This document shows positions 2,495 through 60,789 of a stretch of 64,000 bases of DNA, piece after piece. The stretch is from Pseudomonadota bacterium. GTDB lineage: Bacteria; Pseudomonadota; Gammaproteobacteria; Burkholderiales; Rhodocyclaceae. A program made the translations under genes and the position numbers. Location: assembly GCA_018241665.1 (NCBI GenBank), contig JAFEDK010000019.1:325842-389841 (forward strand), written 5' to 3'. Under the pieces are notes generated by a model. That model did not search any database. It was not told the origin of the DNA and saw only the letters and a program-made list of their open reading frames with translations. Position 1 is the stretch's first letter; every line of letters starts with the position of its first letter.

Positions 2495-2765
2495 CTTTCC
2501 ATTTTTCGGGTGCGGAGCCCGAAGTTTCGGATTCGACCGCCGAAGTTTCGAGCTCCGGACTCGAATGTTCGAGCGCTGAATCCGAAACTTCGAGCTTGGA
2601 GCTCGAAACTTCGAGTCGCGGGCTCGAACATTCGAGCAGATCGGCCCAACATTCGACGATGGACACCGAAACTTCGAGTTCAAACACCGAAAGTCGGACA
2701 GTTACTTTCCATCACCGGAATAATGCCATCCGGTTTTCGGCAGACGATCCCGAAAGACGCGCTCG
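2495..2765. repeat. Array 1: about 13 palindromic units phased at exactly 21 bp
   Basis: Short palindromes are centred at 2524.5, 2545.5, 2566.5, 2587.5, 2608.5, 2629.5, 2650.5, 2671.5 and 2692.5. Each step is exactly 21 bp. Weaker in-phase units lie at 2503.5, 2713.5, 2734.5 and 2755.5. The core is CGAA-NN-TTCG, often extended to CTCGAA-NN-TTCGAG, for example CGAAGTTTCG at 2541-2550 and GAACATTCGAGC near 2629. The 8-11 bases between cores vary. Because 21 is a multiple of 3, all frames give heptapeptide-like repeats and few stops, which explains the overlapping ORFs here. The array fills most of the 2358-2785 gap between two leftward genes. No repeat unit is identical to another, so this is neither a simple satellite nor a CRISPR. 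Confidence 0.85.
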
Positions 2766-11389: not shown

Positions 11390-14300
11390 TTAGCGCCGCC
11401 GCAGCCAGCGCAGGATGGTCGAGAACAGGCGGTCGGGGTCCACCGGCTTGGAGAGGAAATCGTCCATGCCGGCGGCCATGCATTGGGCGCGGTCTTCGGC
11501 AAAGGCATTGGCGGTCATCGCAATGATCGGCACCTGGCTGTACGCAGGCAGCGCGCGGATCCGGCGGGTTGCCTCGAGGCCGTCCATCTCGGGCATTTGC
11601 ATGTCCATCAGGATCAGGTCGAAGGACGAGCCGGCGACCATGTCCACCGCCACCGCGCCGTTGCCGGCCACCGCGACGTCCAGCCCGGCGTCAAAGAGGA
11701 ACAGCTTGGCGACCTCCTGGTTAACCGGCTCATCTTCGACCAGCAGGATCTGAACGCCGGCGTATTCCTTCTGCAGCACGCTCTCCGCGCTGCCACCGTC
11801 GTCCACGTCGGGCAGACCCTGCTGGATGGAGCGTCCGATCCCCAGCCAGGCGGTGAACCAGAAGGTGCTGCCCACCCCCACATCGCTGGCGACGCCGGCC
11901 TCGCCGCCCATCAACTCGGCGAGCCGGCGGGTGATCGCCAGCCCGAGACCGGTGCCGCCGTACCTGCGGGTGGTCGAGGTGTCCCCCTGCTCGAAAGGAC
12001 GGAACAGCTTGCCCAGCACGTCCCGCGGGATGCCGATGCCGCTGTCGCGCACCTCGGCGCGCACCTGCAGCGCATTGCCCTGGCGCTCCTCGACCCGCAG
12101 GCTGATCCGGATGGTGCCGGCCTCGGTGAACTTGACCGCATTGCTGACCAGGTTGAGCAAGGCCTGGGTGAAGCGCGTCGAATCCCCCCGCACCAGGCAG
12201 GACAGGCTCTCGGCCTCGACGACGAGGCGCAGGCCCTTGGCCGTGGTCCGGTCGTGGACCATCGAGGCGACATTGGCCGCCACCCCGTCCAGCGCGAACT
12301 CCCCTTCCTCAAGGATGAACTTCTCGGCTTCGATCTTCGACAGGTCGAGGATGTCGTTGATGACGCCGAGCAAGTGCTGGGCGGCGCCGTCGATCTTGCC
12401 GAGCTGCTCGGACTGGGTCGGGCTGACGCCCTCCCGCTGCATGATGCGCGCCATGCCGAGCACCGCGTTGAGTGGCGTGCGGATCTCATGGCTCATGTTG
12501 GCGAGGAAGGCGCTCTTGGCGCGGTTGGCCGCTTCGGCAGCCTCCTTGGCCAGCAGCAGCTCACGGGTGCGGGCAGCAACGATGCCTTCCAGGTTCTGGC
12601 GGTGGCGCTGCAGTTCCTGCTCGGCGCGCTTGCGTTCGGTGATGTCGGTGGAGATGCCGCACAGGGCATAGACGCGGCCATCCTCCCGGCGCAGCGGCAG
12701 CTTGACCGAGATGTAGCTGTGGGTCTCGCCGCTGCGCCCATCGACGTTGGTTTCCTCGATCTCGATGCGCTCACCGCCCTCGATGACCCGGCGGTCGTTG
12801 TCGCGCAGGATGCGGGCGGTCGGCGCGTCGAAATAGACCTCATCGGTGTGGCCGCAGACCTCCTCGCGTCCGACACCAAACAGCCCGCATACCGCGCGGT
12901 TCGCGTAGGTGTAGCGGTATTCCGTGTCCTTGATGTAGATGTAGGCGCCGACGTTGTCGAGGATGGTGGCCAGCATCGCATCGCTGTCGCGGCGCTTCTC
13001 TTCGGCCAGCCGGCGGGCGCTGACGTCGATGACGATGCCGATGTAGCTGCGCACCCGCCCCTCGTCGTCGCGCACCGGCTGCCCGATGGAGAGCAGCCAG
13101 CGGGGTGCCTGGTCGTCCGGGAGACTGACCCGCCATTCCGCTTCGAAACGCTCGCCCCGCGCACTCGCGCTGGCCACGGTCGCCTCCACCTGGGCCCGGT
13201 CCGCGGGATGCACGATCTGCCGCCAGGCCTCGTAGGAGGGAGTGACGGACTGGGGCTCCAGGCCATACAGCGCCCACAGCTCGTCGGACCAGAAGTTGTT
13301 GTTGCTGTCCACGAACCATTCCCACGATCCGGCCCGGGCGGCGTCGAGGGCCAGGCGCAGGCGCCGTTCGCTGGCCTTCAGGAGTTCTTCCGCCAGGCTG
13401 CGCTCGGTAACGTCCGAGATGGATGCCAGCACGTGGGCCACGCCATCGATGTCGAGGCTGCTGAGGCTCAGCTCGACGGCAAATTCGCTGCCATCCTTGC
13501 GGCAGCCGCGCAGGCTGCGCCGCGCCATCAGCACCTGGGCCTGCTCCGGCGCCAGGTGATAGCGCGCCCGGTAAGTCCCGTGCGCGGCTCGCACCGCATC
13601 CGGGACCAGCATGTCCACCGGCTGGCCGAGCAGTTCGTCCTCCGCGTAACCGAACATCTGCGCCAGGGCCGGATTGACGAGCACCATTTCGCCATCGGGC
13701 CTGACCACCAGCAGGCCTTCGACGCTGGAATCCCAGACCTGGCGGAAACGGGCCTCGCTGAGGGCCTGCGCGTCCTCGGCGCGGCGCAGGTCGGATATGT
13801 CGGTAAACGTCAGCACGGCGCCGGCGATGCCACCGGACTCGTCGAGGCAGGGATCGACCTGCACCAGATAGTGTTCGTCGCGCTGCCGCACGTGCTCGAC
13901 CCGCGCCCCGCCGCCGGCCACCACGCCGCTCACCCACTGGCGCAGCAGCGGCAGGTCGAGGTGGCAGGGCACGCCATACAGGAACTGACCGATGTCGGCC
14001 GGCAGCAGGCCGAAGACACGCCCGGCCAACGCATTGAAGCGCGTCACCCGGCCGTCCCGGTCCACCACGACCAGACTGGAGCGGATGGAGTCCTGGATGT
14101 TGGTGAGGGTGGTGTTGAGCTGGACGTACTCTAGGGATTTCAGGCGCAGTGCTTCATTGAGCGTCGTAAGCTCTTCGTTGGAGGCCTGCAACTCTTCGTT
14201 GGACGCCTGCAGTTCCTCGCTGGAGGCCTGGATCTCTTCATTGAGGGACTGTAATTCCTCGTTGGACGTTTCCAGTTCCTCGATGACCGCCTGCAGGTGT

Positions 14301-15736
14301 TCTCGGGTGTCGGCCAGTTCCTGGCGCAGGCGGGCGATCTCTTCCGCCGCTTCGGCGGAGGCCAGCCCGCGGGCGCCATCCTGGACCGACGGCGCGGGCC
14401 TGACCGGCGTTTCCTCGAAGCTGATCAGCACGCCACCGGACGGGACGCCCTCCACGACTGGCACCCGCCGCAGGACCGGCCGCACCTGCAGGGTTTCATC
14501 ACCGATGCGCACCTGGGCGCCGACTCCGCGCAGCACCTCGACCCCGTCCTGGCGCATGCGCAGACCGAGGGCCTTGAGCTCGCCGCGCAACTCCGGCAAC
14601 ACCAGCGCAAAAACCGAGAAATCGGCGCTCGCCACCGGCAGCGAAAAATAGCGTCGGGAGGCGCCGAAGAAATGCAGCGGCTCGAAGCCGGCATCCACCA
14701 GTACGCCCGGCGGACCGTAGGCTGCGACCATCAGATCACGGGCGTGCTCGGCGAGCAGCTCTCGCTGGGGTCGGGCGTGCTGGCGTTGCAGCACGCGCCC
14801 GACCCGCTCGCTAACCCCATGCTGGAAAACCGCGCCACTGGCCCGGCCCGGCCCGTCATTGCGCCGGTACAGCTTGCCCGCCGCATCGACGGGCTCGAAC
14901 AGCTCCGGCGCGCCGCCAATGGATTCCGCCTTGCCGAGGAAGAGCAAGCCGCCCGGATTGAGGGCGAAATGGAAGTTGCGGATCAGCTCCGCCTGCTGCG
15001 CGGGCTTGAAATAGATCAGGACGTTGCGGCAGCTGACCAGATCCATGCGGATGAAGGGCGGATGACCGGTGAGGTCGTGCAGCGAGAACACGCACAACTC
15101 CCGCAGTGCCTTGCCGACGCGCCAGCCCTCACCGTCGGGGACGAACCAGCGGGCCAGCCGCTCGCGGCTCATGCCTTCCAGTTCGGCAGCGGCGTAGCTC
15201 CCGAGGCGGGCGAACTCGAGGGCCTCCTGGTCGATGTCGGTAGCGAAGATACGCACCTGCCGCGGCTCGGCCAGCACCTCGACGATCTCGGCCAGCAGGA
15301 TCGCGATGGAGTAGACCTCCTCTCCGCTGGCGCAGGCCGGCACCCAAGCCCGTAGCGGGACTCCGGCCGGCTGGCTGGCAAGCCGTTGGCGCAGGCTCAG
15401 CGCCAGTTCGTCGAAGACCTCCGCGTCGCGGAAGAAGGTCGACACGGACACCATGCAACCATGTTGCAAGCGGGCCAGCTCATCCGGGCGTGCCTGCGCA
15501 TGGGCCAGGTACTGGGCAAACGTGGCGAAGCCCAGCATCCGGCAACGCCGTTCGGCATGGCGGCGCAGGGTGCCTTCCTTGTAGCGCTCCAGGTCTATGC
15601 CGGTTGCCCGGGAAGCCAGTTCAAGCAGGGCATGGAAGGCGTCAGCCTCCCCGTCGCAGGATCGGTCGGGACTGCTTGTCATTGTTGTCGTACCGCCCCT
15701 CATGTGCACATCGGAGCATGAACGGCGAAACGCCAT
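11390..15736 (-). CDS. CheR-PAS-histidine kinase-receiver hybrid sensor
   Basis: A 1448-residue signalling chimera. Residues about 30-290 are a CheR-type methyltransferase (VSTFFRD at 98-104, WVPACASGEEVYSIA at 131-145, IFATDID at 163-169). A coiled coil follows (about 475-545, repeated S-N-E-E-L-Q), then about four PAS/PAC domains. The HisKA/HATPase kinase has H1083 in M-S-H-E-I-R-T-P-L. A C-terminal receiver carries phospho-acceptor D1378 (LILMDMQMPEMDG). Such proteins usually have a CheB methylesterase at the N-terminus; none is encoded here or next door. No transmembrane segment, so a cytoplasmic sensor is expected. The start could also be at a downstream Met (residue 12 or 19). It is monocistronic; target unknown. 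Confidence 0.85.
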   Translation of the reverse strand: MAFRRSCSDVHMRGGTTTMTSSPDRSCDGEADAFHALLELASRATGIDLERYKEGTLRRHAERRCRMLGFATFAQYLAHAQARPDELARLQHGCMVSVSTFFRDAEVFDELALSLRQRLASQPAGVPLRAWVPACASGEEVYSIAILLAEIVEVLAEPRQVRIFATDIDQEALEFARLGSYAAAELEGMSRERLARWFVPDGEGWRVGKALRELCVFSLHDLTGHPPFIRMDLVSCRNVLIYFKPAQQAELIRNFHFALNPGGLLFLGKAESIGGAPELFEPVDAAGKLYRRNDGPGRASGAVFQHGVSERVGRVLQRQHARPQRELLAEHARDLMVAAYGPPGVLVDAGFEPLHFFGASRRYFSLPVASADFSVFALVLPELRGELKALGLRMRQDGVEVLRGVGAQVRIGDETLQVRPVLRRVPVVEGVPSGGVLISFEETPVRPAPSVQDGARGLASAEAAEEIARLRQELADTREHLQAVIEELETSNEELQSLNEEIQASSEELQASNEELQASNEELTTLNEALRLKSLEYVQLNTTLTNIQDSIRSSLVVVDRDGRVTRFNALAGRVFGLLPADIGQFLYGVPCHLDLPLLRQWVSGVVAGGGARVEHVRQRDEHYLVQVDPCLDESGGIAGAVLTFTDISDLRRAEDAQALSEARFRQVWDSSVEGLLVVRPDGEMVLVNPALAQMFGYAEDELLGQPVDMLVPDAVRAAHGTYRARYHLAPEQAQVLMARRSLRGCRKDGSEFAVELSLSSLDIDGVAHVLASISDVTERSLAEELLKASERRLRLALDAARAGSWEWFVDSNNNFWSDELWALYGLEPQSVTPSYEAWRQIVHPADRAQVEATVASASARGERFEAEWRVSLPDDQAPRWLLSIGQPVRDDEGRVRSYIGIVIDVSARRLAEEKRRDSDAMLATILDNVGAYIYIKDTEYRYTYANRAVCGLFGVGREEVCGHTDEVYFDAPTARILRDNDRRVIEGGERIEIEETNVDGRSGETHSYISVKLPLRREDGRVYALCGISTDITERKRAEQELQRHRQNLEGIVAARTRELLLAKEAAEAANRAKSAFLANMSHEIRTPLNAVLGMARIMQREGVSPTQSEQLGKIDGAAQHLLGVINDILDLSKIEAEKFILEEGEFALDGVAANVASMVHDRTTAKGLRLVVEAESLSCLVRGDSTRFTQALLNLVSNAVKFTEAGTIRISLRVEERQGNALQVRAEVRDSGIGIPRDVLGKLFRPFEQGDTSTTRRYGGTGLGLAITRRLAELMGGEAGVASDVGVGSTFWFTAWLGIGRSIQQGLPDVDDGGSAESVLQKEYAGVQILLVEDEPVNQEVAKLFLFDAGLDVAVAGNGAVAVDMVAGSSFDLILMDMQMPEMDGLEATRRIRALPAYSQVPIIAMTANAFAEDRAQCMAAGMDDFLSKPVDPDRLFSTILRWLRRR

Positions 15737-55067: not shown

Positions 55068-56357
55068 TTACCGCTTGATCTCGCGGCAAAGCCGGGACCA
55101 TAACGGACGTAACTGCTTGCGGATCGCGCTCGAACCCATCAAGTTAGCAGCGTTATGTCCATACCGAAGAAAGTTTCTCTTCCCCAAGTGCGAATACCGC
55201 GTGAGCAGCTTCTTTAGGTAAAGCTTCCGCTCCGGCACACCAAACCGCTTTCTGAGCTTATTCTTGCTACGCATGGTCTGCTTTGCGAGCGAAACACCGC
55301 GCTTCATACGGTTCGAGAACTTAGCAAATGCCGCAGATCGGATCACCACACGTTGCCCATCGTACATAAACCCGAGATATTGAAGCGGTCGATCCGACAT
55401 CTGCTCTCCATTTTTAAACATGAAGTCACATGCGTCCGTCTTTTCGATGTTAATTTCGACCTTGAGCTTCTCTATTTCTTTCTGGACAAACGCCTCAGCT
55501 TCTTCCTTCATGCCAAGGGGCATCAGGAAAAGCATATCATCACAGTAGCGCATATACGTCCCACCATAACAGTGCACAAACTTCAATGCCGCGCTGTCAA
55601 ATTCGAGCATGTACAAGTTAGAGAGTAGCGCACTAATTGCCGTCCCCTGTGGTATACCAATTCCCGTGGAGTTGGTTTCAATCAGGTTGGCACCACGGAT
55701 GAGATCTCGGTACTCGCTCGGGGTACAGAGGCGCCTTCTCCCGCCACAGCGCGGGTTGTGCACCGAAACATCAAGGGCGGCGAATGCTTTATCACGATCA
55801 ACGATAGAGAACTTGGTGACTGCCTTGAAAACTGCATAATGATCGGGAGGCAGTTCTGCCCCCCCTAGAAGCTCTTTCCATCTCATCTTCAAAAGACGGT
55901 GCGAAAGCGTATCAAAGAACTTCCTGACATCAAAGGCAATTGCAGTACATTCACCCATCGCCCTAATGGTATCAAACGCCTGCTTCGCAAAGTGAATGTT
56001 ATTCTTTCCGCATGATCGAAATGCCAATACGGAATCACCGAGCCCACGCTCGGCGATCTTTTCCTCATAAATCGCAGAAAGCAACTGACAGTAATAGCTG
56101 AAGATCTGTGAATCGGAATGCGCGGCGTATGAGATCTCTCGTAGTTTCTTTTTCGTCGAGATCGTTCCGCTACCTTTTTCTTGTCGGATTTTGACTGTTT
56201 CGATCCCGAACCGAACAAGCGGCCAAAATGAGTGCCGTACCACCGCATTTGGATCAGTGACCAGCGCTTCAGCCTTTTTAATACTGAGAGGCTCGTCAAA
56301 ATGAACATACCGGCGCAGCCGGTACCAAGACGGAATATCTTTCTTTGTATTAGCCAT
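55068..56357 (-). CDS. drt2: Antiviral reverse transcriptase, DRT2-like
   Basis: A 429-residue stand-alone reverse transcriptase of the UG/DRT defence group. It opens with SWYRLRRYVHFDEPLS (residues 10-25), which I recall from DRT2-type RTs. Motif A is AFDVRKFFDTLSH (141-153). RCGGRRRLCTP and GIPQGTAISALLSNLYMLEFD (motif B, 234-254, written here in parts) precede motif C MRYCDD at 269-274. A QYLGF segment lies at 326-330. It lacks the retron NAxxH and VTG signatures and any maturase or endonuclease domain. The gene and its upstream leader are AT-richer than the flanks, pointing to acquisition. DRT2 works with an upstream noncoding RNA; see 56359-56718. Start ATG 56357 lacks a clear ribosome binding site. 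Confidence 0.85.
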   Translation of the reverse strand: MANTKKDIPSWYRLRRYVHFDEPLSIKKAEALVTDPNAVVRHSFWPLVRFGIETVKIRQEKGSGTISTKKKLREISYAAHSDSQIFSYYCQLLSAIYEEKIAERGLGDSVLAFRSCGKNNIHFAKQAFDTIRAMGECTAIAFDVRKFFDTLSHRLLKMRWKELLGGAELPPDHYAVFKAVTKFSIVDRDKAFAALDVSVHNPRCGGRRRLCTPSEYRDLIRGANLIETNSTGIGIPQGTAISALLSNLYMLEFDSAALKFVHCYGGTYMRYCDDMLFLMPLGMKEEAEAFVQKEIEKLKVEINIEKTDACDFMFKNGEQMSDRPLQYLGFMYDGQRVVIRSAAFAKFSNRMKRGVSLAKQTMRSKNKLRKRFGVPERKLYLKKLLTRYSHLGKRNFLRYGHNAANLMGSSAIRKQLRPLWSRLCREIKR

Positions 56358-56358
56358 A

Positions 56359-56718
56359 GGTTAGCAAAACCGGGGAGGGATGAGACCGTGGCAATCTCTA
56401 GCACCCACCCCGGCTTAACCAAGTGACAACTCATCACCATCTTGCGATGCACAAGGCACAGCGTAGCCACGCGTGTTAGCAATGTCGTACAATTTCCTGG
56501 AGTTCACAATGAAGTTAAACATCCAAGTGCAGCTGTCAAGTCTGACCGGCGGAGCCGGCTGGCTTGACATCCTGTGACATACCCCCAGCTCCAATTAGCT
56601 AAGGCTCGCGCAGCCTATCACAGCTTATGATTTTCAAATATCCCAGGGGGCATTCTTTTTTTAGGCGTGATTAAGTCTGCTGGGCATTCAGCCTCGACCG
56701 AAGTTACAGCCTAGACTT
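56359..56718 (-). ncRNA. Candidate DRT2 template RNA upstream of the reverse transcriptase
   Basis: The 711-base gap 56358-57068 has no supported gene. Its RT-proximal half, read on the minus strand, is rich in hairpins. AAGTCT/AGACTT spans 56718-56673. GTCAAG/CTTGAC encloses CCGGC-tcc-GCCGG (56568-56535). A composite stem GGTTA..CCGGGG / CCCCGG..TAACC spans 56420-56359 and ends one base before the RT start codon. A frame free of stops runs from 56594 to 56418 (59 codons) across the central hairpin. DRT2 systems encode a structured RNA here that is reverse-transcribed into concatemeric cDNA with an endless frame. Boundaries are a guess. Confidence 0.5.
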
Positions 56719-57068
56719 ACATTATCGTTTTCCGCCCCTTCAGCGATTACCAGATCATCCACACAGCCCAGCAGCGGCAGTGGCCTGTGAATTCAATCTG
56801 CGTAAGTCATCCTATCGAAAACCGGTAATCGGTGCCCTTTTCCATCCCTCACATAAGTCATGGAGGCTCCGCCAAGCCGCAACATCACAAGGCAGGGTGC
56901 AGATTACCTTCCCAACGCACCACCGCAGTGCTCCTCCCTATCCTCCGCACCACAACAGCCCCCATTCCGGGCGACAGCCCCCTATATCCGCCCCGAATAC
57001 CCCCAGTTTCCCCCATGGCCCGTTTTTTGCACCGCAACACGCAATCAATCGTTCATCGGAGAGCCGAC

Positions 57069-58067
57069 ATGGCCGCGAACTGCACCTGGGATTCCATGGA
57101 TGTCCATCTGCTGCGCGTACTGCACGCCCTGCTCACCGAGTGCAGCGTGAGCAAGGCGGCGCGGCGTCTCAACCAGTCCCAGCCGGCGGTCAGCACCGCG
57201 CTGCGGCGCCTGCGCGACATCACCGGCGACCAGTTGCTGGTGCGCTGTCGCAACGGCATGACGCCCACCGAGCGCGGTGCCGGGCTGCTCGAGCCGGTCA
57301 AGATCGCGCTGCAGCAGATCGAGGCGATCGCGGTGCGGCAGGTCAAGTTCGACGCGGCCAGCTCGCGGCGCATCTTCAACATCGCCACGCCGGACTACCT
57401 CAACGCGGTGCTGCTCGGCGAGATCGTCGCCCGCCTGCGCAAGCTGGCGCCGCACAGCCAGGTGGCCTTCCATTCCCTCGGGCCGGATTACGACTACGCC
57501 CGCGCGATGGAGAACGGCGAGCTCGACGTGGTGATCGGCAACTGGCCCCAGCCGCCGGAAAACCTGCGCATCGCGCCGCTGTTCGAGGACGAGGTGGTGT
57601 GCCTGATGCGCAAGGGCCATCCATTGGCCGGCAAGCCGCTGGGCACCGCCGAATACCTGGCCGCCGAGCACCTGGTGCCGACGCCCTACGCGGTGGGCCA
57701 GCGCGGCGTCATCGACCTGCACCTGGCCCGCGAGCGCATGAAGCGCAACGTGGTGGCCTACGTGCCCTACTTCGGGTTGGTGCCCTACCTGCTGCTGGAA
57801 ACCGACATGCTGTTCTCCAGCCCGCGGATCTTCGCCGAGCACTGCGCCAAGATGATGCCGCTGGCCGTCGCCGAGCCGCCGATCGAATTTCCGAAGATGA
57901 GCTTCTACCTGCTGTGGCACGACCGCAGCCACTACGAGGAAGAATGCCGCTGGTTCCGCGAGCAGATCATCTCGGTGGTGCGCAACTCGCCGGCCCTGCA
58001 GAAAGCCCTGCCCGTCACCCCGCCAAAGGGCCGCGCCGCCGACAGCACCGCCTGCGCGGCGGCCTGA
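57069..58067 (+). CDS. LysR-family transcriptional regulator
   Basis: A 332-residue LysR protein. The N-terminal HTH (about 10-68) reads HLLRVLHALLTECSVSKAARRLNQSQ in part, and an effector domain follows (about 100-310) with IFNIATPDYLNAVLL near 100. The opening and the C-terminal half resemble the NodD/PcpR/LinR branch for aromatic effectors. ATG 57069 has GGAG upstream; a longer frame starting in the leader is rejected. No obvious target gene is adjacent, since the region downstream is repetitive and the next gene is convergent. Confidence 0.88.
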   Translation: MAANCTWDSMDVHLLRVLHALLTECSVSKAARRLNQSQPAVSTALRRLRDITGDQLLVRCRNGMTPTERGAGLLEPVKIALQQIEAIAVRQVKFDAASSRRIFNIATPDYLNAVLLGEIVARLRKLAPHSQVAFHSLGPDYDYARAMENGELDVVIGNWPQPPENLRIAPLFEDEVVCLMRKGHPLAGKPLGTAEYLAAEHLVPTPYAVGQRGVIDLHLARERMKRNVVAYVPYFGLVPYLLLETDMLFSSPRIFAEHCAKMMPLAVAEPPIEFPKMSFYLLWHDRSHYEEECRWFREQIISVVRNSPALQKALPVTPPKGRAADSTACAAA

Positions 58068-58111: not shown

Positions 58112-58210
58112 CTGCTGGGGTGGACTGCTGTGGGGTGGACTGCTGTGGGGTGGACTGCTGTGGGGTGGACTGCTGTGGGGTGGACTGCTGTGGGGTGGAC
58201 TGCTGTGGGG
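58112..58210. repeat. 15-bp tandem repeat abutting a REP-like palindrome
   Basis: CTGCTGTGGGGTGGA is repeated five times in register (58125-58199), preceded by a shortened copy (58112-58124). The last unit runs into the left arm of REP copy 4, whose first bases (CTGTGGGGGCGA) resemble the repeat. It looks like local slippage expansion of an arm. In the 5-codon register it gives V-G-W-T-A repeats, so the ORFs here are artefacts. Confidence 0.9.
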
Positions 58211-58273
58211 GCGAATTCATTCGCCCGCGGAGGTCATTCGACCGACTGAGGGCGAATGAATTCGCCCCCACAG
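58203..58273. repeat. REP-like palindromic repeat, copy 4
   Basis: The arms 58203-58226 and 58250-58273 are near-identical to copy 1, with a 23-base loop. It adjoins the 15-bp tandem repeat on its left, and array 2 begins about 60 bases to its right. Confidence 0.85.
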
Positions 58274-58329
58274 TGGCCCCCCGCAGAGCCCCCACTGCGC
58301 CGCGACAGGCGGCCGGGCTCCTGGACGAT

Positions 58330-58662
58330 TTTCCACGTTGCAAGATCATTCGGCGGCCTGAAAAAATCATTCCGTCACATGACAAAGACGTTTCGTCATA
58401 TGCCATAAACACTGCGTCACGTGACGAAACGGTTTTTTCACATGACATAAAGTGTGCGACACGCCGCGCAATCACTGCGACATGTGACAAAACCTCCGCG
58501 ACGCGTGGCGCAGTCATTCCGGCATATGACTGAATGATCCGGCGGCGTGTCGCAGTGGTTTTGTCATGTGCCCCGGTGGTTTTGTCATATGGCGCAGGGT
58601 TTATTCCATATGAATAAATGGTTTTGCCAGCTGGCAAAACCATTTTCCGGCATGAAAAAATC
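58330..58662. repeat. Array 2: about 16 palindromic units phased at exactly 21 bp
   Basis: Units are centred at 58378.5, 58399.5, 58420.5, 58441.5, 58462.5, 58483.5, 58504.5, 58525.5, 58546.5, 58567.5, 58588.5, 58609.5, 58630.5 and 58651.5, with weaker ones at 58336.5 and 58357.5. Every step is 21 bp. The 10-bp core varies around GTCAT-ATGAC: GTCACGTGAC at 58416, GGCATATGAC at 58521, GTCATATGGC at 58584, GCCAGCTGGC at 58626. Flanks are often TTTT on the left and AAA on the right. Same period and layout as array 1 but a different core. It lies between convergent genes, between REP copies 4 and 5. Together with the tandem repeat it fills the 754-base gap 58068-58821. Confidence 0.88.
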
Positions 58663-58664
58663 AT

Positions 58665-58765
58665 GTAGGGGCGAATTCATTCCCGTGGCGCTGGAGCCCG
58701 AGACCCGGCCAAGTCCAGTCCAGGCACAGCCCAGGCACCGAGGGCGAATGAATTCGCCCCCACAG
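58665..58765. repeat. REP-like palindromic repeat, copy 5 (diverged)
   Basis: The right arm (58741-58765) is intact, while the left arm (58665-58685) is truncated (GTAGGGGCGAATTCATTC then CCGTGG). The loop is longer than in the other copies. It marks the right border of array 2. Confidence 0.75.
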
Positions 58766-58821: not shown

Positions 58822-60789
58822 TCAATGGACGGCCCGGCTACCGGCTTCCAGCGCGTCGGCGGTGTTGGGGGCGACGATGCCCTGGCGTTGCATGCGCCGG
58901 TACAGCGTCGAGCGGGACACGCCGATGGCGGCGGCGGCGGCCGAGATGTTCCAGTGGCAGCGGCGCAGTTCGTCGAGCAGGGCGTCCCGCTCGCTGCCGG
59001 CCGGGCGCCCGATCTCCGGCACAGGGGCAGCCACCGCCAGCGGTGATGCGACGACGGCCAGCACCGGCGCCGCCTGCAGCCCGTCGGGAAAATGCGCCGC
59101 CGCCAGCACCCCGTCGTCGCACACCGCCACCGCAAAGCGCAGCGCGTTGCGCAGTTCGCGGATGTTGCCCGGCCACGGGTAGGCGGCCAGTTGTTCGAGC
59201 ACCGGGTCGGGCAGGCTCAGCGGCCGCCCGGCGGTGGCCAGCTCCTGGGCCAGCACCTGGCGGATCACCACCCGCCGGTCGGAACGCTCGCGCAGCGCCG
59301 GCAGGCGGAACACCGCCGCATTCAGGCGGTAGTACAGGTCTTCACGGAACTGGCCGGCGCGCACCATCGCCGCCAGGTCCCGGTGGGTCGCGCAGACCAC
59401 GTTGAGGTCCACCGCCTCCGGTTCCGACGCGCCCAGCGCCACCACCTCGCCCTCGGCCAGCACGCGCAGCAGGCGCGTCTGCAGGGCCAGCGGCATGTCT
59501 CCGATCTCATCGAGGAACAGCGTGCCGCCGCTGGACTGCTGGACCTTGCCCTTCGAGCCCTTGGCCTTGGCGCCGGTGAAGGCGCCCTCCTTGTAGCCGA
59601 ACAGCTCGCTCTCGATCAGGCTCTCCGGGATCGCCGCGCAGTTGAGGGCCACGAAGGGCTTGTCACGGCGCAGGCTGTGGCCGTGGATCGCGCGGGCGAA
59701 GGCCTCCTTGCCGGAGCCGGTCTCACCGAGCAGCAGGATCGTCAGCTTGCGGTCCACCACCCGCTTGACCCGCTCAATGCTCTCCAGCACCCGCGGGTCT
59801 TCGGCGGCCAGCGCATCGAAGCCGCGTTTGACCGACAGCGTCGCCGGTACCGCCGCTTCGCGCACCGGCGCGCGCAGTTGGGCCTCGAAGCGCACCCCAT
59901 TGGCCAGGCAGCGCAGCGGGATCGGCGCGCCGGGGCGCTCGTGGGCACGCTTCACCAACTCGTCGGCGGACAGGTCGAAGACGTCCTCGATGCGCCGCGA
60001 CGGCAGCTCCGCGCCCGGAAACAGCCCGGCCCGCAGGCGCCGGCTCGCGGCCAGGATGCGCCCACCGTCGTCGAAGGCCAGGCAGTGGGCCTCGCCGAGG
60101 CTCCAGCAATCCCCCGGCCCGCTGATCGACAGGATCCAGGCCGTCTTGTAGCTCTCTACAAATAGCGCGTTCTCGATGGCCAGCGCGTTCTGCTGGACCA
60201 GCCGGAACACCACCGACTGGCTGCTGCGGTTCTCGGGCGCCGCGAAGGCCGACGCGTTCAGCACGCCGACCAGCTCGTCGCGGGGGCCGAACACCGGTGC
60301 CGCGCTGCAGGTGATGCCGTGGTTGTGGTTGCGGAAATGCTCCTCCCGGTGCACCAGGATCGCCGCCCGGTCCACGATGGCGGTGCCGACACCGCAGGTG
60401 CCTTCGTCGGATTCCGACCAGCAGGCCCCGGTGATGAAGCCACGGCGCCGGAACTCCGCGTCCAGGCTCGGCGTACCGCGGAAGTCCACGCTGGTGCCGT
60501 CGCCGGTGGTGAGCAGCACGCAATAGCCGGAGTCGCGCACCTGCTCATGCAGGCGCGCCACGCCCAACTGGGCAATGCGCAGGAAGGTCGCGGTGCGGTC
60601 GCGCAGGTCGCGGAACTCGGCCGCCGACAGCACCCGCGGGCTGGAACGCGTCGAGGGATCGATGCGGTAGGTTTCCTCCGAGCGCCGCCACGATTCGCGC
60701 AAGCGCGCCTCGGTGGCGGCCAGACTCAGCATTCCGCCGGGCAAGAGCCCCCCGGCCAAGGCATCGGCGTGCCTGCCCTGCATATCCAT
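58822..60789 (-). CDS. Sigma54-dependent activator, AcoR-like
   Basis: A 655-residue enhancer-binding protein. An N-terminal GAF-type sensor (about 75-215; TCGVGTAIVDRAAILVHREE) and a PAS-like stretch (about 225-310) precede the AAA+ domain (about 335-560). This has Walker A GETGSGKE, the sigma54-contacting GAFTGA at 402-407, and FLDEIGDMP. A Fis-type HTH ends the protein (CHWNISAAAAAIGVSRSTLY). AcoR-type proteins sense small catabolic metabolites. It is divergent from the PQQ-dehydrogenase operon, which has its own sigma54 promoter, so that operon is its likely target. Confidence 0.9.
   Translation of the reverse strand: MDMQGRHADALAGGLLPGGMLSLAATEARLRESWRRSEETYRIDPSTRSSPRVLSAAEFRDLRDRTATFLRIAQLGVARLHEQVRDSGYCVLLTTGDGTSVDFRGTPSLDAEFRRRGFITGACWSESDEGTCGVGTAIVDRAAILVHREEHFRNHNHGITCSAAPVFGPRDELVGVLNASAFAAPENRSSQSVVFRLVQQNALAIENALFVESYKTAWILSISGPGDCWSLGEAHCLAFDDGGRILAASRRLRAGLFPGAELPSRRIEDVFDLSADELVKRAHERPGAPIPLRCLANGVRFEAQLRAPVREAAVPATLSVKRGFDALAAEDPRVLESIERVKRVVDRKLTILLLGETGSGKEAFARAIHGHSLRRDKPFVALNCAAIPESLIESELFGYKEGAFTGAKAKGSKGKVQQSSGGTLFLDEIGDMPLALQTRLLRVLAEGEVVALGASEPEAVDLNVVCATHRDLAAMVRAGQFREDLYYRLNAAVFRLPALRERSDRRVVIRQVLAQELATAGRPLSLPDPVLEQLAAYPWPGNIRELRNALRFAVAVCDDGVLAAAHFPDGLQAAPVLAVVASPLAVAAPVPEIGRPAGSERDALLDELRRCHWNISAAAAAIGVSRSTLYRRMQRQGIVAPNTADALEAGSRAVH

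Follow-up and report, generated by a model that had tools for sequence, protein, structure and literature searches.

Helically phased arrays of 21-bp palindromic units with changing cores in Zoogloea

The array 2 locus and a second array in the same window

The window—the whole stretch of 64,000 nucleotides analysed here, from a genome of the genus Zoogloea (G000)—contains a LysR-family regulator gene (56832..58067, + strand) and a sigma-54-dependent activator gene (58822..60789, - strand) in convergent orientation, so that both 3' ends face an intergenic tandem array, array 2 (58326-58664, unstranded); the two genes are named here as neighbours, with no functional tie to the array implied. 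REP-like palindromes flank the array, one pair of the GGGGGCGAATTCATTCGCCC type on the left (58208..58269) and a second pair on the right (58668..58763), and relatives of the GGGGGCGAATTCATTCGCCC-type palindromes occupy, at another locus of the same genome, the position held by an array in sister species. Next to the first REP-like pair, a short way to the left of array 2, are 6.3 perfect copies of a 15-bp tandem repeat (TGGGGTGGACTGCTG; 58116-58210). Farther to the left, a DRT2 defence reverse transcriptase is encoded at 55068-56478 on the - strand (PADLOC Drt2, E 4.6e-185), with an RT-12 non-coding RNA directly upstream of its gene (76.2 bits, Rfam).

The original prediction described about 16 units at an exact 21-bp period over 58330-58662, with a palindromic, GTCAT-ATGAC-like core. 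The real extent proved slightly wider (58326-58664), and both the number of units (16, of 21 bp each) and the period were borne out: self-match averaged over lags of 21, 42, and 63 is 0.524, compared with 0.248 +/- 0.015 in 1000 dinucleotide shuffles (maximum 0.295), the top score over periods 15-39 in any shuffle was 0.311, and among periods 12-59 scanned in the array itself only 21 and 42 rose above 0.343. Each unit is made up of the palindrome TTTTKTCAYRTGAMAAAA and three free bases, giving the consensus (C/G)N-TTTTKTCAYRTGAMAAAA-N with the core palindrome GTCAYRTGAC inside it, and all three of the individual cores originally quoted were located (GTCACGTGAC at unit 58410, GGCATATGAC at 58515, and GCCAGCTGGC at 58620). 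All 16 units differ from one another. There are two dyads, one at the core and one at the spacer, with 10.5 bp between them.

Some 56 kb away lies array 1 (2503..2691, unstranded), consisting of 9 units of 21 bp each with the consensus NN-TTCGRNCTCNGAGNYCGAA. Its core palindrome is unrelated to that of array 2 and its period is equal, as expected from the earlier claim that two unrelated cores share one architecture; we refer to the array 1 kind as type A and the array 2 kind as type B. An end-cap palindrome, GGACAGTTACTTTCC, follows on the right (2696..2710, unstranded), its centre 21 bp from that of the last unit as judged by eye, and the open frame of the left-neighbour gene (328 aa, 1701-2687) overlaps the array. 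The type A profile was built from 80 units in 9 arrays (one in part), with at least four more type A places listed among relatives; 6 of the 9 arrays examined have 9 units, and about 12 of 18 ends bear a cap palindrome, as judged by eye. On contig C21 of the same genome, two type A arrays (L119 and L120) sit inside a 649-bp repeated block that is 82% identical and has palindromic ends of ~36 bp, and type A may therefore travel as part of a larger element.

Genes beside arrays at other loci are diverse. Apart from the LysR regulator and the sigma-54 activator, 12 neighbours were scanned with Pfam—a minority of the arrays' neighbours—and these included a Na/H exchanger and an asparaginase, a beta-CASP hydrolase, moeA, an amidohydrolase, and a SIS/GATase-domain protein, the others having no family; no common function emerged among the 12, nor was any rep or par gene found among them or beside array 2. 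A protein of 240 aa that adjoins the array at locus II (L034 5269-5991) has no Pfam family at E 1e-5 and has distant relatives in Methylococcaceae, Gallionella, Verrucomicrobia, and Bacteroidota MAGs. Two candidate associations of array 2 were considered and rejected: a tie to the DRT2 reverse transcriptase 2 kb off, given that the scanned neighbours at other array loci differ, and an origin from a plasmid or phage, given that searches at distant sensitivity matched none of 72,556 plasmid records and none of 50,697 phage records.

Recurrence in Zoogloea and further cores in a congener

BLAST with array 2 recovered three more type B arrays in its own genome (contigs C51, C3, and C20), and a 63-column sequence model of type B (R1) added a short fifth on contig C54, bringing type B to 4 places beyond array 2; the sequence flanking the C54 array matches the flank of the locus VIII array in another genome, G021, at 87% identity over 608 bp. 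Across the genus, R1 at E <= 0.01 detected type B in 9 of 23 Zoogloea genomes, and a model for the array 1 type (R2) detected type A in 5 of 40 relatives, the source genome included in both counts. Searches of 199 family genomes, for which filters were stricter than at the genus level, found type B in 5 (R1, E <= 1e-4) and type A in 3, in each case within Zoogloea alone of the 68 genera represented; neither model matched in the 67 other genera sampled. Two-unit consensus patterns designed for scanning collections recovered 0-4 of 31 loci.

Within the whole genome, near-consensus sites lie almost entirely inside arrays. For type A, at up to 2 mismatches, 13 of 15 sites are inside and 2 outside, the number also returned by a reversed control pattern; for type B, at up to 3 mismatches, 15 of 17 are inside and 2 outside (control 0). 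These counts bear on the idea that the arrays serve to titrate, as decoys, some conventional transcription factor that governs a regulon of its own, which would fit their operator-like palindromes along one helical face; the genome-wide scarcity of single sites elsewhere speaks so clearly against it that we consider it largely refuted and very unlikely.

We also ran a scan blind to the core, covering periods 15-36 and then unit-profile symmetry in 2.05 Mb of sequence, which gave 48 hits at period 21, of which 18 were symmetric. Three of these were set aside because the frames in which they lie, 424 to 1778 aa long, are coding-like, leaving 15 arrays: 7 in G000 (5 of them from stretches chosen because arrays were known there) and 8 in a congener, G012. 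A fair density estimate thus comes from G012 alone, at 8 in 679,316 bases, in stretches drawn from contigs with earlier unrelated hits. R1 and R2 matched nothing in this congener, yet all eight of its arrays have 21-bp units and palindromic profiles (symmetry 1.8-2.2 times the off-centre median), lie outside coding-like frames of at least 100 aa, and carry about six other cores, with unit consensus sequences such as GTCWACAT...ATGTWGAC, GTTAACTSACATCCG, TCCAANTCNGANTTGGA, TTNCCCTCNGAGGGNAAC, ATCCGGNGCNCCGGAT, and CTGGAC...GTCCAG. Because G012 lacks types A and B and nevertheless has eight arrays with about six cores, it is the spacing and the dyad symmetry that stay constant while the core changes. 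The original prediction of a class whose conserved property is its spacing is thereby supported and extended: similar arrays do occur among relatives, with type A in 5 of 40, type B in 9 of 23, and eight arrays of about six further cores in G012.

The G+C content of the 15 arrays is 0.48-0.63, compared with 0.66 for the window. Hits that were symmetric at other periods (15-36) resembled, by eye, GC-rich low-complexity sequence, coding repeats, or the same arrays detected at period 28. Smaller samples from other genomes, too small for proof of absence, yielded no arrays (G006, 200 kb; G027 and G040, 100 kb each; G003, G011, G018, G023, and G032, 20 kb each; G013, 6.9 kb). No description of such an array class was found in the open literature searched, a body that mostly excludes subscription journals, and the arrays look like a type of repetitive DNA that has so far gone undescribed.

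A period of 21 bp is also seven codons, and one coding repeat reached a symmetry ratio of 2.04, level with the arrays, so symmetry alone cannot separate the two. Hidden protein-coding heptad repeats were weighed as an explanation. Certain frames do run open through an array, in some on both strands, and the left-neighbour frame runs open through array 1; stops in mirrored frames are fewer than in column shuffles for type B (one mirrored pair, 6 vs 15.8 and 9 vs 19.0, observed vs shuffled) and for type A (1 vs 5.3 and 2 vs 6.9). In the type B open frame TAG and TAA are rare (1 vs 14.1 and 1 vs 17.9 expected), and both are below expectation in other frames too. On the other hand, none of the frames is open across all seven B arrays, and TGA is not avoided, since with G at column 8 an A follows at column 9 in 34 of 97 cases when TGA results and in 29 of 99 otherwise. 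Moreover, 14 of the 15 arrays from the core-blind scan have no overlapping coding-like frame of at least 100 aa, array 1 being the exception. Coding is refuted for type B and, with type A and the G012 cores tested less, seems to us extremely improbable for the class. Elsewhere in the window, a 21-bp repeat at 14152-14298 falls within a coding-like open frame of 1448 aa (11390-15736, - strand) and is probably a coding heptad repeat, separate from the arrays; a similar 21-bp repeat in G012 (L268:13405) lies in a frame of 1778 aa.

Turnover of arrays and symmetry of their half-sites

At seven loci (I-VI and VIII), type B arrays are found in orthologous positions in 2-6 species, and they are gained or lost as blocks. 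Locus I, that of array 2, carries an array in each of four species, whose flanks there share 93-97% identity. Of the three sister-species arrays, two are 95% identical and the third is 69-70% identical to those two, whereas array 2 is only 46-50% identical to all three, within the range of the poorest orthologue pairs and too little to establish its common descent with them. In two more distant species (L046 and L047) the locus I genes nearly abut, with no array between, and in two others (L044 and L045) the match coordinates leave room for only some 10-40 bp. Locus III has an array in three species and a gap of only about 70 bp in G018 and G019. In G000, REP-like palindromes occupy the array's position at this locus (L182, about 2228-2360, contig C4), between the Na/H exchanger and asparaginase genes. 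In G018, an array has been copied between two loci (L096/L098; 78% over 321 bp). The same genome has an IS3-type element with HTH_Tnp_1 and rve proteins (L100 2377-3887) that interrupts a B array, leaving 4 units on one side and 7 on the other, and IS-like ends seem, by eye, to be in contact with arrays in L098, L122, and L094.

This turnover in blocks, including the G018 copy, is what would be expected of a bacterial satellite, in which palindromic seeds are amplified in 21-bp steps by copying or slippage and then drift without being read by anything. We regard such a satellite as the chief and a strong rival, a serious possibility that we nonetheless think less likely than not. That 21-bp copying occurs is shown by L258, where adjacent units are identical, and length differences within aligned orthologous arrays include one of 21 bp and one of 42 bp, along with at least five of 1 bp. 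The G012 cores partly intergrade, two types having GGATNTGAGTT in common, and the near-absence of near-consensus sites outside arrays also suits an unread repeat. Against this, neighbouring units are barely more alike than distant ones, with an excess of 0.81 +/- 0.28 of 20 letters in 7 B arrays and 0.47 +/- 0.29 of 21 letters in 7 A arrays, and the palindromic consensus is kept in arrays that have diverged by 20-35%, which would be unexpected from drift alone.

The rates at which individual columns change also count against a satellite. In comparisons of 9 locus pairs, some sharing a species, the freest columns of type B (1, 10, 11, 14, and 20) change between orthologues at 0.25-0.30 per site and the two-letter columns (0, 3, 6, 8, 9, 12, 13, 15, and 18) at 0.10-0.18, with letter-specific transversions recurring; at column 6, for instance, G/T accounts for 7 of 19 changes, and at column 15 C/A accounts for 7 of 17. 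Columns 4, 16, and 17 are slow too (0.14-0.17) despite being weakly conserved, and every-third columns change at 0.152, compared with 0.194 elsewhere. Overall, constraint on the arrays is modest, since orthologous arrays diverge by 5-35% and their flanking genes by about 3-14%. B arrays also have a GC gradient, from about 0.40 at the ends to 0.55 in the middle, and among their strong units 208 of 219 successive distances are multiples of 21, a figure obtained from arrays whose calling had itself favoured 21-bp steps.

The unit profile is strand-symmetric in type B (338 units), in type A (80 units), and in the 8 G012 arrays, and the question follows of whether the two half-sites of a unit change together, as the original prediction had supposed in describing them as drifting in step. 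In array 2 itself they do not: 87 of 160 half-site positions are complementary, compared with 82.8 +/- 6.0 after the right halves have been randomly reassigned to units (p = 0.28). Nor do they in type A, where none of 9 column pairs covaries over 80 units (all |z| < 1.6) despite the symmetric consensus. Only for type B units taken together is there some covariation, and it is weak. Seven pooled B arrays show a small excess of complementarity (5.11 of 10 vs 4.65, z 3.2), and across 338 units covariation is seen in 3 of the 10 symmetric column pairs (6-15, z 6.9; 10-11, z 4.7; 4-17, z 3.2). The 338 units come from 25 array calls, after 9 of 34 were omitted as close orthologues or for having few units, and the retained calls still contain orthologues, two pieces of one array (L106), and a doubtful call beside an IS-like end (L098:2745). 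Columns 6 and 15 covary almost as strongly across the spacer with the next unit (z 5.3), and part of the covariation of this pair derives from the GC gradient. Half-sites that are symmetric yet vary independently match the binding sites of homodimers, unlike base-paired stems, and their independent conservation favours sequence-specific binding.

The possibility that units act instead as hairpins, alone or paired with neighbours, in a structured RNA or a cruciform has its own evidence. Compensatory double changes between orthologues rank the two dyad centres first and second of 42 (0.197 and 0.167 vs a mean of 0.102; 12 locus pairs, not all independent). In 9 pairs, some sharing a species, 26 of 101 double changes at the core dyad are compensatory, as opposed to 58 of 402 when these columns are taken from units at a distance of two to four, but the control one unit away is nearly equal to the core (18 of 78) and the spacer dyad is little raised (16 of 92). 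At locus I, L042 and L040 differ by matching changes in perfect neighbour-pair hairpins, and in 7 arrays folding is more stable than in versions with shuffled columns (z -2.3 to -5.4); the order of the units, however, has no significant effect on folding energy (z -1.9 to 0.6) or on long-range pairing. A single long hairpin spanning the array was rejected on this last ground. Array 2 belongs to no Rfam family at the gathering threshold, the sole match in the window being the RT-12 RNA beside DRT2. Together with the lack of covariation in type A and in array 2, these results make a structured RNA or cruciform improbable in our estimation.

A possible lattice of dimers and comparison with known systems

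The reading that we tentatively prefer, without claiming it as probable, is that the arrays offer binding sites in helical phase to dimeric proteins, which would line up next to one another on the DNA. Array 2 belongs to a class of intergenic elements in Zoogloea with about 8-19 palindromic units placed 21 bp, or two helical turns, apart, in which the second dyad, half-way between cores, gives one dyad per helical turn, all on one face of the DNA. On this reading, each core could be the recognition sequence of a putative homodimeric protein, and adjoining dimers touching along one face of the helix might build a cooperative filament or plug on the DNA. Packing between proteins would set the 21-bp spacing, and each core would follow its own reader; candidate purposes of such a complex include a chromosome landmark, insulation between genes, or silencing.

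A dimer lattice is the simplest account of two-turn phasing, symmetric and independent half-sites, distinct ends, and unequal column constraint, and it is supported by the phase of the strong units, the unequal column rates, the orthologous positions, and the differences between ends and middles. Several observations count against it. Because near-consensus sites are nearly confined to arrays, there is no isolated operator to indicate a cognate gene, and eight arrays with about six cores in 679 kb would require many readers. Some covariation exists in type B that dimer sites do not need, column rates and conservation are mismatched at columns 4, 16, and 17, there are at least five 1-bp indels, constraint is modest, and the 12 neighbours scanned with Pfam have no common function. 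The two origins first suggested, a cognate factor for each array or a single copying mechanism, both have something in their favour, the independently conserved half-sites for the former and the identical units of L258 for the latter. Copying and binding can be combined, such that copying creates arrays and binding retains those that work. On a broader and more speculative view, which we think may well be wrong, Zoogloea chromosomes would harbour a large class of intergenic phased arrays that diversifies by itself and may number tens in each genome, with a constant 21-bp lattice and dyad symmetry and a core that differs between arrays and between species, read by paralogous dimeric proteins that share one packing interface but diverge in DNA specificity, and thereby turned into coded chromosomal landmarks or silencing plugs.

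Bacterial repeats usually preserve their sequence, whereas here period and symmetry persist while the letters change. If proteins read the arrays, these would be helically phased chromosomal elements of a class not yet described, and they would offer a ready means of testing how DNA specificity co-evolves with a packing geometry that stays fixed; should there be readers that combine one interface with many specificities, that would be categorically new. If nothing reads them, the arrays would be a rare case of a satellite in bacteria, copied in a step tied to two turns of the helix, and the question would become how that step works.

Geometry resembling that of the arrays is known from operator pairs and iterons. 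The paired ARG boxes of ArgR are 18-bp palindromes that lie on one DNA face with about 21 bp between their centres and are bound by a hexameric repressor. The palindromes of the arrays are likewise two helical turns apart, as reflected in the multiples of 21 bp between strong units and in the symmetric profiles, but ArgR has two or a few boxes, one regulon, and one core, whereas the arrays have 8-19 units, many cores, and unrelated scanned neighbours. The iterons of plasmid replication and the arrays of partition centromeres are tandem sites spaced by helical turns that nucleate protein assembly, iterons being direct repeats next to a rep gene. Unlike iterons, the arrays are palindromic and occur at many loci, the scanned neighbours include no rep or par gene, and array 2 has no plasmid or phage match. 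With CRISPR arrays, in which unique spacers alternate with near-identical repeats, they share regular units that combine conserved and variable parts; array 2, however, has no identical repeats, a period of 21 bp, palindromic units, and conserved and variable columns that are interleaved. REP sequences and BIMEs are intergenic palindromic repeats present in many copies, single or paired, which belong to one family, are associated with a RAYT transposase, and have no strict helical phasing. The arrays, too, are intergenic, palindromic, and present in many copies, and REP-like pairs flank array 2 and occupy an array's position at locus III; in contrast to single or paired REPs, type A and type B units are found almost only in arrays, and their core changes at a constant period.
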